From Elusimicrobia bacterium GWA2_51_34 (GTDB lineage Bacteria; Elusimicrobiota; Elusimicrobia; Elusimicrobiales; UBA9959): a stretch of DNA of 45,208 nucleotides. The position numbers and the translations under genes are program-made. Shown piece by piece: positions 2,251-33,180 of this stretch (its first letter is position 1; each line of letters starts with the position of its first letter). The notes under the pieces were generated by a model. The model was not told the origin of the DNA and did not search any database. It saw only the letters and a program-made list of their open reading frames with translations. The stretch lies in contig MGTS01000041.1 in the NCBI GenBank assembly GCA_001799565.1, positions 17,211-62,418 of the forward strand, in the 5' to 3' direction.

Positions 2251-2270
2251 AAATGGAGATAGATTCCGGG

Positions 2271-3275
2271 TTAAAAGGTGCGGGTTACTTTTTTCAGGCC
2301 TTTGGGGTTGTCGGGGTTCAGGCCGCGGGACAAGGCCAGGTTAAGCGCCAGCAGTTTCAGTTTAATATCGGTAAGCAGGCAGTTGAAAGGAAATCGGCCT
2401 TTCTTTTGCGTAACAACCCGGTACGGCGTGCCGCGCTCTTTAAGCGCTTTTTCAACCTTCATCAGATCTTTGGGCAGTTTTCCCCCGGGGCTGAGCAGAA
2501 AAATAAAATCGGAAGCGCTGTAAGCCCCAACGGGTCCATGTAAAAATTCAGCGGCCGAATAGCCCAGCGCGTGGGAACGGCTCATCTCGCGGAATTTAAG
2601 CGCCGCGTCTTCGGCCACGGCGTTATACGGGCCGCGCCCCACAAAACCTATCATCCGCGCCGCTTTCACTTTTTTAAAAAACGGCCTGGCGGCTTCTTCA
2701 AAAGGCGCCGACACAAGCCGCCGCGCCAGTTCCACTGTTTCGGAGAAATCGCTCTTTCTGAAGCAGCCGCACCATATTTGCGCGGTCCACAAAACGGCCC
2801 ACAATTGCAGTATAAAGCTTTTAGTGGCGGCCACCGGCAGTTCCTTTGAACTGGAAAGCAAAATACCGGCGTGCGCCGCCCTTGCAAGAGGATTTTCGGC
2901 GAATGACGGCTCATTGGTCACGGCTACGGTTCTTGCGCCCCATTTTTTCAGCAGTTTAAGACAAGCCACAATATCCCCGCTTTTGCCCGACTGCGAGAAA
3001 GCCCACACGGCCTGGCCTTTGAAATTAAGCGGTTTTTCAGCCTCAAGAATTGAATGCGGGTGAATGAAGTTGGTAATTACGCCCGCGTAAACTTCCCATA
3101 TATATTTGGCAAAAAGCGTGGCGTTGCCGGAACTCCCACGCCCCACCAGGTAGACGCTGTTGTTTTTATTTTTGAGCGCGGTTTTTTTAAGACCCCGCGC
3201 CCTTTCGGAAAACAAACGCAGAAGCTCAGGTATTTCCCTGATATCGCAATAGGTAAGCGTATCTTCAGTTTTCAT
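2271..3275 (-). CDS. Double-SIS-domain sugar-phosphate isomerase/deaminase (GlmS C-domain/AgaS-like)
   Basis: 334 residues with two SIS folds and no glutaminase domain. Motifs typical of the GlmS isomerase half are visible: VGRGSSGNA (about 44-52), FSQSGKSGD (about 93-101), ELPVAATKSF, the catalytic-loop-like AEFLHGPVGAY, and the C-terminal NPDNPKGLKKVTRT. These point to an aldose-ketose isomerase or glucosamine-6-phosphate deaminase of the NagB-II/AgaS/GlmD group; which sugar it uses cannot be told from sequence. As it lacks the N-terminal Cys amidotransferase, it is not glucosamine-6-phosphate synthase. First gene of the unit with the retropepsin and OmpA-like genes; an inverted-arm element lies directly upstream. 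Confidence 0.8.
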   Translation of the reverse strand: MKTEDTLTYCDIREIPELLRLFSERARGLKKTALKNKNNSVYLVGRGSSGNATLFAKYIWEVYAGVITNFIHPHSILEAEKPLNFKGQAVWAFSQSGKSGDIVACLKLLKKWGARTVAVTNEPSFAENPLARAAHAGILLSSSKELPVAATKSFILQLWAVLWTAQIWCGCFRKSDFSETVELARRLVSAPFEEAARPFFKKVKAARMIGFVGRGPYNAVAEDAALKFREMSRSHALGYSAAEFLHGPVGAYSASDFIFLLSPGGKLPKDLMKVEKALKERGTPYRVVTQKKGRFPFNCLLTDIKLKLLALNLALSRGLNPDNPKGLKKVTRTF

Positions 3276-3298: not shown

Positions 3299-3438
3299 GT
3301 AGTCAGGATTCAGTAGTCAGAATTCAGAATAGCGGAATCTTTCTGGCCTATGGCCGTGCCGTGTCAGGGGCTATGACCATCAGACGGTCTCGTAGTCAGC
3401 TTTTTTATTCTGACTACTGAATTCTGACTTCTGACTAC
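3299..3438. repeat. Intergenic inverted-arm element A (unit GTAGTCAG/AATTCA)
   Basis: Left arm 3299-3331 and right arm 3406-3438 are near-complementary over 33 bp; each is built from alternating GTAGTCAG and AATTCA units. The right arm ends on the base before the HAD gene stop codon. The interior carries a 33-bp module (3356-3388, GTGCCGTGTCAGGGGCTATG...) with about 26/33 matches to 10638-10670 inside element G. Confidence 0.75.
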
Positions 3439-9720: not shown

Positions 9721-9864
9721 GCCACAAGTCTCAAGTCACAGGTCACAAGTCAGAGAGGAAGTGTAAACTGAAGAAAGATAGTTTAAGATTCAGTCTCTTC
9801 TCCACCTTTAGTCTTCAATAAATCGGTCTCTTGCTTGTGACATGTAACCTGTGACTTGTAACCT
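9721..9864. repeat. Intergenic element F, inverted copy of element G
   Basis: Positions 9742-9864, read on the minus strand, align with 10463-10583 on the plus strand along their whole length (123 against 121 bp, roughly 85% identical by hand). Both begin AGGTTACAAGTCACAGG and share the core ACTAAAGGTG...TGAATCTTAAA...TATCTTTCTTCA. Terminal arms are tandem GTCACAAGT units. The end of the element overlaps the exonuclease stop codon (9863-9865). Confidence 0.85.
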
Positions 9865-10459
9865 AATATGCTCTTCCGCAGCTTTTTTTAACCAGGTCGC
9901 CTACGGTGGCGGCCCCGCTCTTCTTGAAAGCGGAAATAAAATGCTCAAAAATCTTTCTGGTCATTTCCACATCGGCTAGCGCCCTGTGCCAGTTTTCGTT
10001 TGAGAGGTTAAGTTCCGTGGCTATAGTGCCAAGACGGTTATTGGTAAATTTCCAATGACCGCGCGCTATTTCAAGTGTATCCACCACCGGCAACCGCTCC
10101 GGGAATTTAAGCCCCACCCTGGAAAATTCCATTTTTAAAAAATTCATATCGAAAGGGGCGTTGTGAGCCACTATCACAGAACCCTCCAGCAAATCCAGAA
10201 GCTTGGGCGCCACCCCCCCAAAGGCGGGGCTCTGGCGCACCATGTCGTCCGTGATGCCGTTTATCCTTGAGGCTGTAGGCGGGATGGGCCCGCCGGGGTT
10301 TACAAGCGAGGAAAACTGGTTTACGCGCGCGGCGCCTTTAAAGCCTATAAGCGCCACTTCGCACACCCGCGCGCGCTCCGGAGAGAGCCCTGTGGTTTCC
10401 ACATCAATAAAATTAAAAACAGCTTCGTCTATGTTTTGATCAAGCATGGCGGCAGTCAT
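9863..10459 (-). CDS. DEDDh 3'-5' exonuclease (DNA polymerase III epsilon-like)
   Basis: 198 residues, a stand-alone DnaQ-fold exonuclease. Exo I is FIDVETTG with metal ligands Asp19 and Glu21, Exo II is VAHNAPFDMNFL, and Exo III is HRALADVEMT with the general-base His and final Asp. That makes the DEDDh type, as in the proofreading subunit, RNase T and the exonuclease domains of Gram-positive PolC. Whether it proofreads or trims RNA or DNA cannot be told. Starts at ATG 10457-10459 (another Met at codon 5); no clear Shine-Dalgarno sequence. Both ends abut inverted copies of the same repeat element (F and G), so the gene is bracketed like a cassette. Confidence 0.85.
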   Translation of the reverse strand: MTAAMLDQNIDEAVFNFIDVETTGLSPERARVCEVALIGFKGAARVNQFSSLVNPGGPIPPTASRINGITDDMVRQSPAFGGVAPKLLDLLEGSVIVAHNAPFDMNFLKMEFSRVGLKFPERLPVVDTLEIARGHWKFTNNRLGTIATELNLSNENWHRALADVEMTRKIFEHFISAFKKSGAATVGDLVKKSCGRAY

Positions 10460-10462
10460 ATC

Positions 10463-10688
10463 AGGTTACAAGTCACAGGTCACATGTCACAAGCAAGAAA
10501 CCGAGTACCGAAAACTAAAGGTGAGAGAAGATTGAATCTTAAATTATCTTTCTTCAACTTACACTTCCTCCCCCACTTGTGACAAGCCTATGGCAGTGAC
10601 TCTGGCCTGTCGCGGGCCTATGGCGCTGTCCGCGACTGTGCCGTATCAGGGCCTATGGCCGACAAACGGCTTTGAGACTTGTGACTTA
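10463..10688. repeat. Intergenic element G with nested modules
   Basis: The first 121 bp (10463-10583) are the inverted homologue of element F. A second block follows (10584-10672), containing GTGCCGTATCAGGGCCTATG, related to the interior of element A, and three copies of the CCTATGGC motif. A final arm AGACTTGTGACTTATA at about 10673-10688 covers the stop codon of the DUF3307 gene (10686-10688). It looks like one element inserted beside or into another. Confidence 0.8.
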
Positions 10689-13739: not shown

Positions 13740-13957
13740 AAACCGGACCGTCTGCTAGTTAGAACTGAAGAAGTATAAAATTTCAGCGCTTCAACACTGG
13801 CTTGACACGGCACAACCGCAGGCTAGTCAATTCTATTAAACAAAAAGCCGGTAAACAATATCCCTTGTCAGAAAGCTGGCAGGCTGGTATGCTTTCAGAG
13901 AACTCCTACAGCAGGCCTACAAGCATACACGCCTGCCGGCATACCGGCAGAGCTTAG
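13740..13957. repeat. Gap between histidine kinase and cyclase with a family-2 element
   Basis: Inverted arms at about 13874-13896 (AGCTGGCAGGCTGGTATGCT) and 13913-13957 (GCCTACAAGCATACACGCCT...). The stretch around GGCTGGTATGCTTTCAGAG and CCTACAAGCATAC matches the element at 33107-33150 almost base for base. CTGCCGG-CATA-CCGGCAG (13933-13950) is a small hairpin. Upstream, 13740-13860 holds a weak GACACGGCACA motif resembling the interior of element A and nothing else that I recognise. Confidence 0.6.
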
Positions 13958-16142: not shown

Positions 16143-17396
16143 TTATCCCTTTCTCTTGAGGGCCTCGATCAGCTTGGGTAATATTTCATGCGCGTCGCCC
16201 ACTATTCCGTATGTGGCCACGTTAAAGATGGAAGCGCCGGGGTCTTTATTTATCGCCACGATCACATCCGACGATTTCATCCCCACTATGTGCTGGACTG
16301 CGCCTGAAATACCGAAAGCCAGATAGATACTGGGAGAGACCGTAGTTCCGCTTTGCCCCACCTGGCGGGTTTTTTCCTTGAAACCCAGATCCACTGCGGC
16401 CCTTGAAGCGCCTACCATGCCCCCCAGCAGGCGCGCCAGCTCTTCAAGAGTTTTGAATTTTTCTTTTGTTTTCATGCCGCGGCCGCCTGAAACCACAATT
16501 TTGGCGTCGCTTATTTTAAGGGCGCCGGGCTCGCGCGTGATCTTTCTTTCCAGAACTTTAACGCGGCGCAGAGTTTTGTCTATTTTAATTTCTTCGCGCA
16601 GCAGCACGGCCGTTTTACCGTAAACCGGGTCGGAGATTTTCATTACATTGGGGCGCACAGTGGCCATCTGCGGCCTGGAGTTTGGGCTTAAGATGTCGGC
16701 CATGATATTGCCGCCGAATGCGGGGCGCGACTGCAGCAGCAGGCCGTCCTTTATGGCAAGCCCCGTACAATCCGCTGTTAAACCGACATAAAGCGCGGCG
16801 GCCACGCGCGGAGCCAGGTCCCTGCCCTGTATGGTGGCCGGATAAAGCATGACCGCGGGCTTATGCCGGTTGACAAGCGCCGTGATAGCGGTGGAAAAAA
16901 TATCGGTATTGTATTCAAAAAACTCCGGATTTTCCACAAGGTACATCTTATCGGCGTCAAGCGCGCCCAGTTCTTTTTCATAAGCGCGGTTCTTGTCGGT
17001 CAACACCACCGCGCAGAGTTCCTGTCCTAGTTCATCGGCAAGTTTGCGGCCGGCCGACAACAATTCAAACGTAACCGGCTTTATTTTTCTCGCGCCCTCT
17101 ATTACAGCTTCAGCCTGCGGCTTACCCGCCGGAGCCGCGCGGTGAGCGGACGCCTTATCTTCCGGCTCCGAGAGCTCCACAAATACCCACACGCCTTTAT
17201 AGTTTGAGAAATCCTTTAAAACCGACTCTTCCCTGACAATATTTATGGCCTCCACGGGACAGATCTGCACACAGGCTCCGCACAGCGTGCAGGCCTCGTT
17301 TATAACGGCCTTCTTTTCCATCATCTGTATCGCCGCGAAAGGGCAGACCGGCACGCATTTGCCGCAACCTATGCATTTCTGGGAAACTTCAATCAT
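16143..17396 (-). CDS. etfA: Electron transfer flavoprotein alpha subunit with N-terminal 2[4Fe-4S] ferredoxin domain
   Basis: 417 residues. Residues 1-60 form a bacterial-type ferredoxin with two CxxCxxCxxxCP clusters (Cys8, 11, 14, 18 and Cys36, 39, 42, 46). The rest is EtfA, with the C-terminal FAD-binding region VGQSGTTVSPSIYLAFG, AVQH and VAINKD. Of EtfA proteins, the ferredoxin-extended type is known from electron-bifurcating complexes such as LctC and CarE of Acetobacterium woodii. This points to coupling NADH oxidation with reduction of ferredoxin and an acyl-CoA or 2-hydroxyacid partner. AGGAG lies 7 nt ahead of the ATG. It is transcribed after acyl-CoA dehydrogenase and etfB. A gap of about 136 bp with an inverted-arm element separates it from etfB, which is unusual for this gene pair. 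Confidence 0.93.
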   Translation of the reverse strand: MIEVSQKCIGCGKCVPVCPFAAIQMMEKKAVINEACTLCGACVQICPVEAINIVREESVLKDFSNYKGVWVFVELSEPEDKASAHRAAPAGKPQAEAVIEGARKIKPVTFELLSAGRKLADELGQELCAVVLTDKNRAYEKELGALDADKMYLVENPEFFEYNTDIFSTAITALVNRHKPAVMLYPATIQGRDLAPRVAAALYVGLTADCTGLAIKDGLLLQSRPAFGGNIMADILSPNSRPQMATVRPNVMKISDPVYGKTAVLLREEIKIDKTLRRVKVLERKITREPGALKISDAKIVVSGGRGMKTKEKFKTLEELARLLGGMVGASRAAVDLGFKEKTRQVGQSGTTVSPSIYLAFGISGAVQHIVGMKSSDVIVAINKDPGASIFNVATYGIVGDAHEILPKLIEALKRKG

Positions 17397-17420
17397 AAAT
17401 AAGCTCCTACAACTTTGTTC

Positions 17421-17520
17421 GCTAGTAGGCTGGTATGCTAGTAGGCTAGTAGGCTAAGAGGCTCGAAAAAGCACGCCCACTTCCTCCGCCGGCATACCCG
17501 CCTACCAGCTTACTAGCCTG
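17421..17520. repeat. Intergenic inverted-arm element K (unit CTAGTAGGCTGGTATG)
   Basis: Left arm 17421-17456 (CTAGTAGGCTGGTATGCTAG...) and right arm about 17490-17520 (GGCATACCCGCCTACCAGCT...) are inverted copies. It separates etfA from etfB, genes that are normally adjacent or overlapping. Confidence 0.7.
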
Positions 17521-17532
17521 CCCGCGCTATTT

Positions 17533-18324
17533 TCATTCCTCAATAAATCGCTCTTTTTTCATTATTTCCAGCAGTTTATCCACCGCTTGATGAACGGAAC
17601 CATGCGTCATCTGCGCTTTGCCTTTGAGCGGCGGCGGATAGATTTTGTTTACCTGCGTGGGCGAGCCTTTAAGCCCCAGGTAGCGTTCTTCGGCCCCGAT
17701 GTCCGCGGCCGACCATACCTGGTAAGGCTTCGCAAGAGCCGCGTGTATGTCCGGAAAAGAGGGATAGTCGGGCGCATAGTCAGGCGGCATTATCATTGTA
17801 AAAAGCGCGGGTGGTTTGACTTCAACTACTTCATAACCGTTATCAATGAGCTTTTTTACTATAAACTTTTTCCCGTCAAGGTCGATATGTTCGCAGAAAG
17901 TAACCTGCGCTATGCCGAGTTGCTGCGCCACGCCGGGCCCCACCTGGGCGGTGTCGCCGTCTATGGCCTGCATACCGCACAAAATAAGGTCCAGCTTACC
18001 CGATTTTTTGGCCGCGCGCGACAGCGCGTAGGAAGTGGCCCAGGTGTCGGAACCGGCAAACGCCATGTCGGAAAGCAATACGCCGTCGTCGGCGCCAAGC
18101 GCCAGCGCGAGCTGCACCACGCTTTTCGCCTGCGGCGGACCCATGGAAATAACAGTAACCCTGAAACCGTGCTTTTTTTTCAGTTCAAGGGCGCTCTGCA
18201 GCGCGAAATGGTCGTACGGATTTATTATGCTCGGCACTCCGGCCCTTATCAGCGTGCCGGTTTCCGGGTTTATTTTCACTTCAGTGGTGTCGGGCACCTG
18301 CTTGATAAAAACGGCAATGTGCAT
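17533..18324 (-). CDS. etfB: Electron transfer flavoprotein beta subunit
   Basis: 263 residues, full length. It begins MHIAVFIKQVPDTTEVKI and carries the nucleotide-binding region GMQAIDGDTAQVGP and the loop SDMAFAGSDTWATSYAL. In bifurcating Etf the beta subunit holds the bifurcating FAD; DGDTAQVGP fits that group, but sequence alone does not settle it. AAGGAG lies 7 nt ahead of the ATG, within a stretch repeated exactly ahead of the dehydrogenase gene. It pairs with EtfA downstream and the acyl-CoA dehydrogenase upstream. Confidence 0.94.
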   Translation of the reverse strand: MHIAVFIKQVPDTTEVKINPETGTLIRAGVPSIINPYDHFALQSALELKKKHGFRVTVISMGPPQAKSVVQLALALGADDGVLLSDMAFAGSDTWATSYALSRAAKKSGKLDLILCGMQAIDGDTAQVGPGVAQQLGIAQVTFCEHIDLDGKKFIVKKLIDNGYEVVEVKPPALFTMIMPPDYAPDYPSFPDIHAALAKPYQVWSAADIGAEERYLGLKGSPTQVNKIYPPPLKGKAQMTHGSVHQAVDKLLEIMKKERFIEE

Positions 18325-18331
18325 GAATAAT

Positions 18332-18480
18332 CTCCTTAAATTTTATCGATGGCAACTGACCGCAACAGAAGGCTACTGAAAGCAACAGAAAGTTTTGCTG
18401 CGGTTTTTCTTACCTTCCGTGGCTTTCTGTCGCATTCCTTTGCTTTCCACTGCTATAATTTTACTTGGCCTTAAACGTCT
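18332..18480. repeat. 149-bp direct repeat, copy P (etfB leader to dehydrogenase 3' end)
   Basis: Aligns without a gap to 20102-20250; I count 13 mismatches in 149 (about 91%). It starts in the etfB ribosome-binding site, contains inverted arms built on GCAACAGAAGGCTACTGAAA, and includes the stop codon and last six codons of the acyl-CoA dehydrogenase gene. Confidence 0.9.
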
Positions 18481-20095
18481 GCTTCAGTTTCGCGGCCACA
18501 ATGTCCATGTCGGCCGTAAGGCCTTTCTGGGCCGCGGCGGCGCCGGCCACATCAACGGAAAGATTAACCTCTCCCTCGGCGGTGCCCAGAACCAGGGCCG
18601 CGCCCTCTACGGCTATAGTAAGCGCGGCTTCCCGGGCAAAAACACGGGCCATTGCCCGCCAACCCTGCGCGTCAAAGCGTACCGACTCGCTGTATTTTTC
18701 TTTGGCGGCGGCGCCCGAAAAAACATAAGCGGCCTCGCCCATGGTTATAAGCCTGCCGAGTTTAAAAGTTATATGCTGGTGGCGGGTGAGCTTTTGCACG
18801 CGGCATTCTTCAAGAACAGCCGCAAGCGAGCGCAACGCCAGGGCGCAGGCTTCAGCCCCCACATCGGCATTTGCCGTGTGCAAAGCGTCCATTTTGTCCG
18901 CCAGATCCAGGTAATACCTGCCCCTCGTTTTTAAATGTTCCTGCCAGCGGCCCCGGTAAATGGTCATTTCCAGCACTTCGCTGGTGCCCTCGTAAATGCA
19001 GGTGATCTTAACATCCCTCTTGATTTTTTCAACCGCAAAGTCGTGCGTGTAGCCGTAGCCGCCAAGCGCCTGTATGGCGTCTTCCGCCGCTTTATTGCCG
19101 GACTCGGTGGCAAAATATTTGGCAACCGCGCCCTCGGTCTGCAGGCCGTGCTCGCCCGAGTCAAGGCGGTTGGCGGTTTCTTCTATATAGGCGCGGGCGG
19201 CTTCAAGTCTTACAATGTTGGGCACCAGAAACTTGTGGGTGTAGCCCTGCTTATCGGAAAGCGGGCCGCCCGCCTGTATCCTCTGCTGGCTGTAGCGCGC
19301 GGCTATCTCAATAGCCTCAAGCCCCGCCCCAAGGCCGAAAGCCGCCACCATAAGGCGGGTATAGCCGAAAACAGCCTGCGCCTGTAAAAGCCCCTTGCCT
19401 TCTTCAAGGCCTATCAGGTTTTCAACCGGCACATAAACATTGTCAAGTGAAAGCCCCGCCGTGTTTGAAAGCCGTATGCCGTGCTTGTCTTCGTGCTTAT
19501 TGGGAGAAAACCCTTCCATGTCCCGCTCAACTATAAACCACGAAGGCCCGCCGGGCGCCAGGGCCAGCACCGTGTAAATATCGGCCACTCCGCCGTTTGA
19601 GATCCATTGTTTGGCGCCGGTCAGACAGTAGCCGGTCAGCTTGCCGTTTTTTACCACATGCTCGGCCCTTGTTTTTAAATTAACCAGATCGGAGCCGGCG
19701 TCCGGCTCGGTGGCGGCATAAGCCACAAACGACCGCTCCTTGGCTATTTTTGTAAGCCATTTTTCCTTCTGCTCCTCGGTTCCGCCGACATTAAGAGGAT
19801 CGGTGCCCAGAAAAGTGGCGAATACCGAGGTGGCAATGCCGAGGTCAATGCGGGCCAGCGCCTCGCAAACCCTGTAAATATCAAAAGTTCCGCCCGAAAC
19901 ACCGCCGTACTTGACCGGGATCATCAGCAGATGCACGCCTAAAATAGCCGGATCATACATCTCTTTCAATATTTCAGCCGGGAACTCGTTGTCGGTGTCG
20001 TGCCGGCGTATGAAGTCAAAAGGCAGCCGCCTTTTAGCGTATTCACGCAGACTGTCCAGCATCAGGTTTCTTGAAATAGCGTCAATGCTTGCCAT
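18461..20095 (-). CDS. Acyl-CoA dehydrogenase, long form
   Basis: 544 residues: about 380 of standard acyl-CoA dehydrogenase fold plus a C-terminal helical extension of about 160 residues, seen in some Etf-linked family members. Signatures: AATEPDAGSD (about 127-136), LTGAKQWISNGG (about 158-169), QALGGYGYTHDFAVEK (342-357) and the catalytic IYEGTSEV with base Glu369, the position used by short-chain acyl-CoA dehydrogenase. It would oxidise an acyl-CoA to the 2-enoyl-CoA, or run in reverse with bifurcating Etf. AAGGAG lies 6 nt ahead of the ATG. The gene lies between two 149-bp direct repeats, one of which includes its own last codons. Chain-length specificity cannot be read. Confidence 0.92.
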   Translation of the reverse strand: MASIDAISRNLMLDSLREYAKRRLPFDFIRRHDTDNEFPAEILKEMYDPAILGVHLLMIPVKYGGVSGGTFDIYRVCEALARIDLGIATSVFATFLGTDPLNVGGTEEQKEKWLTKIAKERSFVAYAATEPDAGSDLVNLKTRAEHVVKNGKLTGYCLTGAKQWISNGGVADIYTVLALAPGGPSWFIVERDMEGFSPNKHEDKHGIRLSNTAGLSLDNVYVPVENLIGLEEGKGLLQAQAVFGYTRLMVAAFGLGAGLEAIEIAARYSQQRIQAGGPLSDKQGYTHKFLVPNIVRLEAARAYIEETANRLDSGEHGLQTEGAVAKYFATESGNKAAEDAIQALGGYGYTHDFAVEKIKRDVKITCIYEGTSEVLEMTIYRGRWQEHLKTRGRYYLDLADKMDALHTANADVGAEACALALRSLAAVLEECRVQKLTRHQHITFKLGRLITMGEAAYVFSGAAAKEKYSESVRFDAQGWRAMARVFAREAALTIAVEGAALVLGTAEGEVNLSVDVAGAAAAQKGLTADMDIVAAKLKQTFKAK

Positions 20096-20101
20096 TTAGA
20101 A

Positions 20102-20250
20102 CTCCTTAAATTTTATCGATAGCAACTGACCGCAACAGAAGGCTACTGAAAGCAACATAAAGTTTTGCCGAGTTTTTTCTTACCTTCCGTGGCATTCTGT
20201 TGCATTCCTTTGCCTTCCGCGGCTATAACTTTATTTTGCCTTAAACGTCT
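20102..20250. repeat. 149-bp direct repeat, copy Q (dehydrogenase leader to FTCD 3' end)
   Basis: Second copy of the repeat at 18332-18480. Its right end repeats the last codons of the dehydrogenase (on the minus strand AGACGTTTAAGGCAAAATAA), but here they are read in another frame and supply the final residues and stop codon of the FTCD gene. This is a fossil tail of a second dehydrogenase copy, or a duplicated junction. Confidence 0.9.
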
Positions 20251-21722
20251 CCCGCCGTTACATACCCTTTAACTTCTTCCACTATTTTTTTACCGTACAC
20301 CTTGTCTTCAAGGCCTTCAGCGTTAATAAAAACATTCTCAGCCGCGCAGCGGATGGCCGCCTGCAGCAGATAGCGGGCGCTTCTGTAATCCGAGACTACC
20401 TGCGCGGAGACAAGGTCCGCGCAAGCTACAAGGCCCGCCAGAGCCTCCGCCGACAGGCGCGCCGTATTAAGCGGCACCTCGGCCGCGTACTTAAGGGCGG
20501 CCTGCATTTTAGCTTTGCGCTCAGGGTTGTCTTTCGGCAGTTTCAGAGCCGCCATGAAAACATTAAAAGAAGCCGAATCCTCGCTCACACAGTTTTGCAG
20601 GGCGGCTTTATACTCCCCCAGCTTTTCACGCCGGGCGTTAATAACGGGTTTTTTAGACTCTTCAAGCTTTTTACCGCGCAGGGTTATACCCAAAGCCATC
20701 TGCCCCAGGGCGCAGCCCATGGCTCCGCTGACCGCGCCGGCTGACCCCCCTCCCGGAGTGGGCTCGGTATTGGCCAGCGCGTCCACAAAAAGCCCCGCGC
20801 CTGCCTGCCAGGAACTGAGAAGTTTCAGAAGTTTTGTTTCCAAAACCTGGGTGTCTTTGCTGAAGTCCTTTACATTAAGAGCCTCAACGGCGTAGTCGGT
20901 AATGGCTTCCTGCGTAGTAAGGCCGATAAGTTCGGTTCCGGTAATCGCTATATTTTTAGGGGCCAGGTCTTTGGCCATTTCGTCCATTACGCGCTTGACG
21001 GAGGTGGTCCGATAATCGGTCAGCACGGTTGAAATCTGCACCTGCCCCCTGGATTCCAGAAAAATTTCCTTGGCACGGAGCGACGGCAGTCCGCCTCCTG
21101 AAGTGCGTATCTTACGCGCCAGAACCTTGGCGAAAGCCATGTCGGTGGTGGCCAGGTTCACATTGAAATTTACTATCTGGTTGCGGGCGCCCACGGCCAT
21201 AGCGCCGGCAGTCGGATGTATCCGGTTAGGACCGAAGTCCGGCACACGGTCAGGATTTTTTCCTATTTCTTCGCGCAGACCTTCAAACTGCCCCTTGCGC
21301 ACCTTTGCAAGGTCCCTCCGGTTTTCATTACGGGCGGCCTTGTCGTAAAGATACACGGGGATATTCAGTTCCCGGCCTATTCGTTCACCGGCGATTTCAG
21401 CCAGTTTCACGCATTCCTCAAGGGTGGAATCCATTATGGGAATGAACGGGGCCACATCGGTGGCGCCCATGCGGGGGTGTTCGCCTTTATGGTGATTAAG
21501 GTCTATAAGGCCGGCGGCTTTTTTGGTAACGGCAAACATCGCCTCGGCGGCGGTTTCAAGCGGAGCTATAAAAGTGAGCACCGTGCGGTTATGGTCCGCG
21601 TCTTTTTCAACGTCCAGCACCAGCACGCCAGGCACGCTCCTGGCGGCGTCCACTATCCGGTTTATCTTATCAAGGTCCCGGCCCTCGCTGAAATTAGGCA
21701 CACATTCCACAAATTTGCCCAC
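20241..21722 (-). CDS. ftcD: Fused glutamate formimidoyltransferase / formimidoyl-THF cyclodeaminase
   Basis: 493 residues. Residues 1-300 are the formiminotransferase (KFVECVPNFSEGRD, catalytic His82 in GEHPRMGATDVAP). About 310-485 is the cyclodeaminase (FVDALANTEPTPGGGSAGA). Together they move the formimino group of formiminoglutamate to tetrahydrofolate, release ammonia and leave 5,10-methenyl-THF plus glutamate, completing the hut pathway encoded at 4366-9697. Many bacteria carry the two activities separately or use other routes; the fused form is best known from animals. GTG start at 21720-21722 with GGAGG 4 nt ahead. The last codons lie within direct repeat Q, so the original C-terminus may have been replaced. 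Confidence 0.95.
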   Translation of the reverse strand: MGKFVECVPNFSEGRDLDKINRIVDAARSVPGVLVLDVEKDADHNRTVLTFIAPLETAAEAMFAVTKKAAGLIDLNHHKGEHPRMGATDVAPFIPIMDSTLEECVKLAEIAGERIGRELNIPVYLYDKAARNENRRDLAKVRKGQFEGLREEIGKNPDRVPDFGPNRIHPTAGAMAVGARNQIVNFNVNLATTDMAFAKVLARKIRTSGGGLPSLRAKEIFLESRGQVQISTVLTDYRTTSVKRVMDEMAKDLAPKNIAITGTELIGLTTQEAITDYAVEALNVKDFSKDTQVLETKLLKLLSSWQAGAGLFVDALANTEPTPGGGSAGAVSGAMGCALGQMALGITLRGKKLEESKKPVINARREKLGEYKAALQNCVSEDSASFNVFMAALKLPKDNPERKAKMQAALKYAAEVPLNTARLSAEALAGLVACADLVSAQVVSDYRSARYLLQAAIRCAAENVFINAEGLEDKVYGKKIVEEVKGYVTAGDV

Positions 21723-25243: not shown

Positions 25244-25463
25244 ATAAAAACCCGGAACAGCTTTGCATCCGGCGCAACGGAACCGCCGCCGCGCTGGATA
25301 CCGCTTTCACATCTTACTAACTTTTAACGCCCGCCCGTTATCTTATTGCGAACAGGCGTTTAAACCAGCCAGTAACGCCCGGAGAAAAGCAGAATCGCAA
25401 GAGAATTGCCCGCCGAACAACCGGTGGGGTCTCCTCAGTCGCTGGCAGTCCGCCTAAAGCGGA
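25244..25463. other. 220-bp gap with no recognised gene
   Basis: Leader region of the lipoprotein/kinase pair and downstream of the peptidase gene. It is GC-rich, with several possible stems on the minus strand (for example around CACCGGTTGTTCGGCGGG), but I could not match it to a known riboswitch or small RNA. A 65-codon open frame covering much of it has no start signal or recognisable domain. Confidence 0.5.
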
Positions 25464-25522
25464 ACAGGCCCCGCCCTTTTGCCCAACGTTGTTTAACTCT
25501 GTTGGCAAAAGGGCGGGGCCTG
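25464..25522. repeat. REP-like palindrome, copy 2, at the 3' end of the M23 peptidase gene
   Basis: A perfect 20-bp inverted repeat (25464-25483 with 25503-25522), extended into the loop by GTTG/CAAC with one bulge. The core and loop match the palindrome at 93-156. It lies 10 bp past the peptidase stop codon, the same position relative to its gene as copy 1. Confidence 0.75.
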
Positions 25523-25531
25523 TCCCTATTT

Positions 25532-33082: not shown

Positions 33083-33180
33083 AAGGCTGTAGGCTGAAGG
33101 CTGGTATGCTAGTAGGCTGGTATGCTTTTCAGAGCCTACAAGCATACTCGCCTACCAGCCTGACTACTTACAGCCTATTC
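33083..33180. repeat. Intergenic element L (unit AGGCTGGTATGCTAGT)
   Basis: Left arm about 33083-33128 (GGCTGGTATGCTAGTAGGCT...) and right arm about 33132-33180 (GCCTACAAGCATACTCGCCT...). Its central part matches 13880-13935, and the arm family matches elements J and K. It fills the trxA-receiver gap. Confidence 0.75.

Follow-up and report, generated by a model that had tools for sequence, protein, structure and literature searches.

Intergenic stem-loop repeats, among them the REP/BIME and ERIC families, are well known from bacteria and have been surveyed (PMC2267715). Whether REP sequences evolve by gene conversion was asked in the 1988 review by Higgins, as cited in that survey, and the spread of small intergenic palindromes, by transposition or by conversion-like copying, is an old question. 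REPINs, the best studied mobile form, are thought to be mobilised by RAYT (Y1) transposases (PMC3116915). Multicopy intergenic hairpins made of heptanucleotide repeats have been described for Geobacter metallireducens (PMC2700814), and intergenic arrays of the heptamer TAACTGA for Beggiatoaceae, Cyanobacteria and Bacteroidetes (PMC4679880). For the Elusimicrobia, we found no description of an intergenic hairpin family in the open-access papers searched.

The hairpins flanking the acyl-CoA dehydrogenase gene acd of the uncultured Elusimicrobia bacterium studied here can be likened by description to REP, BIME and ERIC, as they are dispersed, intergenic and hairpin-forming, with a spread by conversion proposed; in contrast to these families, their arms are longer and consist of tandem units of about 10 nt, and the tail of a flanking gene appears to have been copied along. 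With the hairpins of G. metallireducens they share short tandem units, an inverted intergenic arrangement, many copies and the presence of several families per genome, but the unit is about 10 nt long (GAAAGCAACA-like) instead of 7 nt, whereas other hairpins of the window resemble the heptamer type. The resemblance to REPINs lies in dispersed hairpins in a genome with Y1 transposase genes (six matches), although none of the six is flanked by the hairpin family. TAACTGA arrays likewise consist of short units in tandem, set in spacers close to start codons; however, they are direct repeats and not hairpins, and their unit is different. Intergenic palindromic repeats are thus a known kind of sequence, of which the present instance is new and modestly informative.

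Anatomy of the repeat pair

In the window, i.e. the whole stretch of 45,208 nucleotides that was analysed, the genes ftcD, acd, etfB and etfA follow each other in that order, all on the minus strand (Table 1). Copy 1 of the repeat occupies the acd/etfB spacer and copy 2 the ftcD/acd spacer. The preliminary description of 149-bp direct repeats with 13 mismatches and no gaps was confirmed by alignment (91% shared, longest identical run 36 bp) and by a blastn search of the whole genome, in which copy 2 was recovered at E = 1.4e-55, a value that excludes chance. One end of copy 1 lies in the ribosome-binding site just upstream of etfB (ATG at 18324), and the other reaches 20 nt into acd. Copy 2 begins just upstream of acd and extends 10 nt into ftcD. 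About 118 bp of each 149-bp copy represent one member of a genome-wide family of intergenic hairpins. What distinguishes the two window copies is the acd tail, while the 11-nt leader is also common to both but generic.

The 20-nt tail of acd, AGACGTTTAAGGCCAAGTAA, has its counterpart AGACGTTTAAGGCAAAATAA in copy 2, with 18 of 20 nt identical. The last codons of acd are thus found in the wrong place, as had been stated before, and another frame of the copied tail (G GAC GTT TAA) terminates ftcD. The native end of ftcD, comprising its last few codons, appears to have been replaced by this tail. As the match to the FTCD_C domain stops at residue 485 of 493, the domain is spared by the C-terminal change, which is probably neutral.

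Table 1. Features of the ftcD-acd-etfB-etfA locus, in window coordinates
Feature	Position	Strand	Remarks
Repeat copy 1 (putative donor)	18332..18480	-	acd tail 18461-18480; hairpin element 18343-18460; etfB leader and ribosome-binding site 18332-18342
Repeat copy 2 (putative recipient)	20102..20250	-	acd-tail copy 20231-20250; hairpin element 20113-20230; acd leader and ribosome-binding site 20102-20112
Hairpin element, copy 1 (dispersed intergenic family)	18343..18460	-	predicted RNA fold -35.8 kcal/mol, z -3.1
Hairpin element, copy 2	20113..20230	-	predicted RNA fold -35.6 kcal/mol, z -2.7
Native last 20 nt of acd	18461..18480	-	encoded C-terminus KLKQTFKAK/R conserved in most of the family
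Copied acd tail	20231..20250	-	its first 10 nt (20241-20250) form the present last codons and stop of ftcD
acd (acyl-CoA dehydrogenase), single copy	18461..20095	-	
ftcD (formiminotransferase-cyclodeaminase)	20241..21722	-	altered C-terminus ...KGYVTAGDV
etfB (electron transfer flavoprotein beta subunit)	17533..18324	-	
etfA (electron transfer flavoprotein alpha subunit with ferredoxin domain)	16143..17396	-	

The hairpin family

The family yielded 59 matches at E <= 10 in the genome, about 30 of them at E <= 1e-4, and the longer matches share about 70-76% identity. The hairpin is imperfect, and its arms are built from GAAAGCAACA-like units, the length of about 10 nt being judged by eye from an alignment of 16 copies; tandem units of seven nucleotides were not seen in it. 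The consensus of these 16 copies has a stem of 20 pairs, four of which are changed on both sides with pairing kept, while its covariation term is weak (-0.71). The fold predictions for the two window copies (Table 1) refer to the elements as transcribed.

Members inspected on contigs C41 and C42 sit between open reading frames, as delimited by a crude ORF call. Four near-identical members (91-93%) are found elsewhere on C42, separated by more than 100 kb and lying in either orientation with respect to the genes, which indicates that members of the family have moved recently. These four copies display no evident target-site duplication of the MITE kind, and some are nested in the arms of other repeats. 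The genome contains six matches to the Y1 transposase (PF01797); since none of these genes is flanked by a family member (best match 22 nt, E 0.016), a REPIN/RAYT origin was dismissed.

No Rfam family matched within the window. On the coding (minus) strand, neither spacer contains a terminator-like match or T run, and one short terminator-like match lies on the non-coding strand (18419-18433). The hairpin is probably a generic intercistronic RNA stem involved in stability or processing, if it has a role, or tolerated repeat DNA.

Gene order in relatives and the origin of the second copy

The closest named relative of the genome is UBA9634, with 92% in acd. The order ftcD-acd-etfB-etfA is kept in nearly all family members read and is ancestral in this family of Elusimicrobia; in the sister family, acd-etfB-etfA is present without ftcD. 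The gene acd is single-copy, its remaining matches being distant paralogues, and the tandem dehydrogenase pair that had been suggested as a thing to look for was found in none of 37 genomes. Taken together, acd was neither inserted at this position nor necessarily duplicated. In two genomes of the same genus, ftcD has longer, ordinary ends (...KGYITAANGEWRMAISE and ...KGYITAANREEANSK) which lack acd sequence, and both spacers are filled with other sequence. The spacers measure merely 10-30 nt in many other genera, which suggests that long hairpin-bearing spacers are probably derived and were gained repeatedly. A member of another genus carries a 73-nt hairpin on both sides of acd, the two being 97% identical and free of any gene tail.

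We consider it probable that, since the species diverged, the acd/etfB spacer has been copied into the one between ftcD and acd. The two copies diverge by 8.7%, whereas fourfold acd sites differ by 33-37% among the sister species, which makes the event younger than their split. As the tail of acd belongs natively to copy 1, the direction is from copy 1 to copy 2. The source would be the entire acd/etfB spacer, i.e. the hairpin element with the terminal 20 nt of acd on one side and the ribosome-binding site on the other, and its copy would have landed in the neighbouring ftcD/acd spacer, displacing the sequence that stood there before together with the final few ftcD codons. As to the molecular route, we infer template switching or a conversion-like copy between adjoining spacers. 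A switch-in may have relied on a short stretch that the end of ftcD has in common with the tail of acd (GCGGGAGACG here, GCGGCAAACG in a relative), and a switch-out may have occurred at the ribosome-binding site TTTAAGGAG or within the hairpin. All breakpoints are deduced from diverged relatives and not from a strain with an intermediate, and the right flank, at an edit distance of 7-9 to many spacers of both kinds, is too short and generic to show origin or direction.

The same anatomy would result if acd had been duplicated in tandem with its downstream spacer and the upstream acd then lost by a deletion running from the end of ftcD to the tail of acd; the left junction would suit the breakpoint of such a deletion just as well. 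A genuine tandem duplication of 1.45 kb (89%) with gene tails at its junctions does exist in the genome, and the shared ribosome-binding sequence could have served unequal crossing over. However, this course requires two events, of the lost acd no more than 20 nt would survive, with neither a substantial remnant nor a second gene, and a tandem acd is absent from the 37 genomes, so that we regard it as unlikely, if still a serious contender. The earlier interpretation held in part: a piece of acd was duplicated into the wrong place, where it replaced the native ftcD end, whereas a tandem acd is not needed. A very improbable reading is that two mobile hairpins inserted independently beside acd and that the match to the acd tail is coincidental. 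The dispersal of the element, with its 91-93% identical members, and the tail-free hairpins around acd in another genus would fit such insertions, but a match of 18 of 20 nt, in register and past the end of the element, is far beyond chance and absent from the other dispersed copies, and the reading was already disfavoured. That the repeat might be a common element unrelated to the gene, which would count against the earlier interpretation, is true of most of its length, a common intergenic element.

The preliminary description had also offered gene insertion by recombination, i.e. the integration of an acd-carrying segment that left direct repeats at its ends. A nearby stretch of 3.5 kb on the contig does resemble an insertion, with copies of a gene end on either side. 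Insertion of acd is nevertheless refuted by the synteny conserved across the family: the gene is ancestral at this position, and its similarity to the sister species (91-92%) is on a par with that of the adjacent ftcD and etfB (89-93%), which makes this origin scarcely credible. Hardly any more weight can be given to an artefact of assembly; the metagenome-assembled genome is a draft in 43 contigs, but 13 sites distinguish the copies, the relatives have the same gene order and all reading frames are intact.

The exact run of 36 bp would make recombination between the copies possible. Such an event would delete 1,770 bp, comprising the whole of acd and one repeat copy, and would leave ftcD-spacer-etfB. 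The loss of acd proposed before is thus feasible, but ftcD directly before etfB without acd was not found among the relatives. In one genus (g3; genomes G004 and G015, loci L033/L085 and L031/L083), a close etfB is absent and a histidine kinase gene directly follows acd, indicating that genes were lost or moved here in another lineage; it is a matter of speculation whether repeats were the cause.

Spacer hairpins along the genome

Hairpins of short units occupy most of the co-directional spacers, both in the window and along the syntenic stretches of the two same-genus genomes, and orthologous spacers of these species frequently differ in their unit. Among co-directional spacers with a length of 60-400 nt, strong inverted repeats (by one score, z >= 4) were present in 34% in a sample of this genome versus 3% in loci from other phyla, with small samples and crude gene calls. 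In two sampled stretches of the genome, 722 kb together, 46% and 62% of the spacers shared a repeat with another spacer, and similarity between neighbouring spacers was enriched 2 to 5 times. At a threshold of at least 50 bits, seven pairs of similar spacers lay no more than 5 kb apart in the first sample (1.5 expected by permutation, p 0.001) and 13 in the independent 400-kb sample (3.9 expected, p < 0.0005). The first sample leaves out the genuine tandem gene duplication on C42 (87465-90330, L140), in which the end of the upstream gene is joined at the junction to the start of the downstream one and which was used as a control. Together with the hairpins flanking acd in another genus, this enrichment supports recurrent local copying or homogenisation, and local copying looks recurrent in this genome as judged from its spacers.

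No other case of a gene tail copied along with a hairpin was found among about 1,080 gene ends sampled in the genome, the exceptions being tandem paralogues, two weak matches with four mismatches and, at a distance of 3.5 kb, one insertion-like case. In the insertion-like case, the last 60 nt of the minus-strand gene at 2271-3275 and a further 14 nt are repeated with 94.6% identity (window 2257-2330; contig C41, 15941-16014; L149). The second copy, 3.5 kb downstream, marks the far end of a stretch that the same-genus genome G001 lacks, and the arrangement resembles an insertion at the end of a gene, bounded by att-like direct repeats.

Several further spacers of the window carry hairpins of other types. 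The one at 3301-3429 consists of CTTCTGA/ATTCTGA-like heptamers with the consensus MTYCTGA, which is the consensus of a multicopy hairpin class in G. metallireducens (PMC2700814). Inverted copies of a GTCACAAG-type hairpin (9742-9870 and 10457-10583, 86%) flank the gene at 9863-10459. Hairpins of GCTAGTAGGC-type units are found in the spacers at 17420-17530, 13866-13949 and 33084-33176, and comparable orthologous spacers in sister species contain other units or none. Similar strong hairpins with GGCAAAAGGGCGGGGC arms occupy the spacers at 90-159 and 25456-25531.

As a tentative extension, the hairpins of these Elusimicrobia may spread and turn over mainly by the copying of whole spacers between neighbouring gaps, occasionally with a gene tail that rewrites the C-terminus of the neighbour. 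This would explain why orthologous gaps of sister species hold hairpins of different units. For annotation, the locus advises caution, since C-termini beside hairpin spacers can be borrowed from adjoining genes. With the tail of the donor gene attached, the hairpin fixes the direction and the extent of one copy event and, combined with the enrichment among neighbours, turns local copying into an alternative to transposition that can be tested in Elusimicrobia. The pair of repeats around acd may thus serve as a small, clear example of how repeated gap hairpins can spread between neighbours in this genome.
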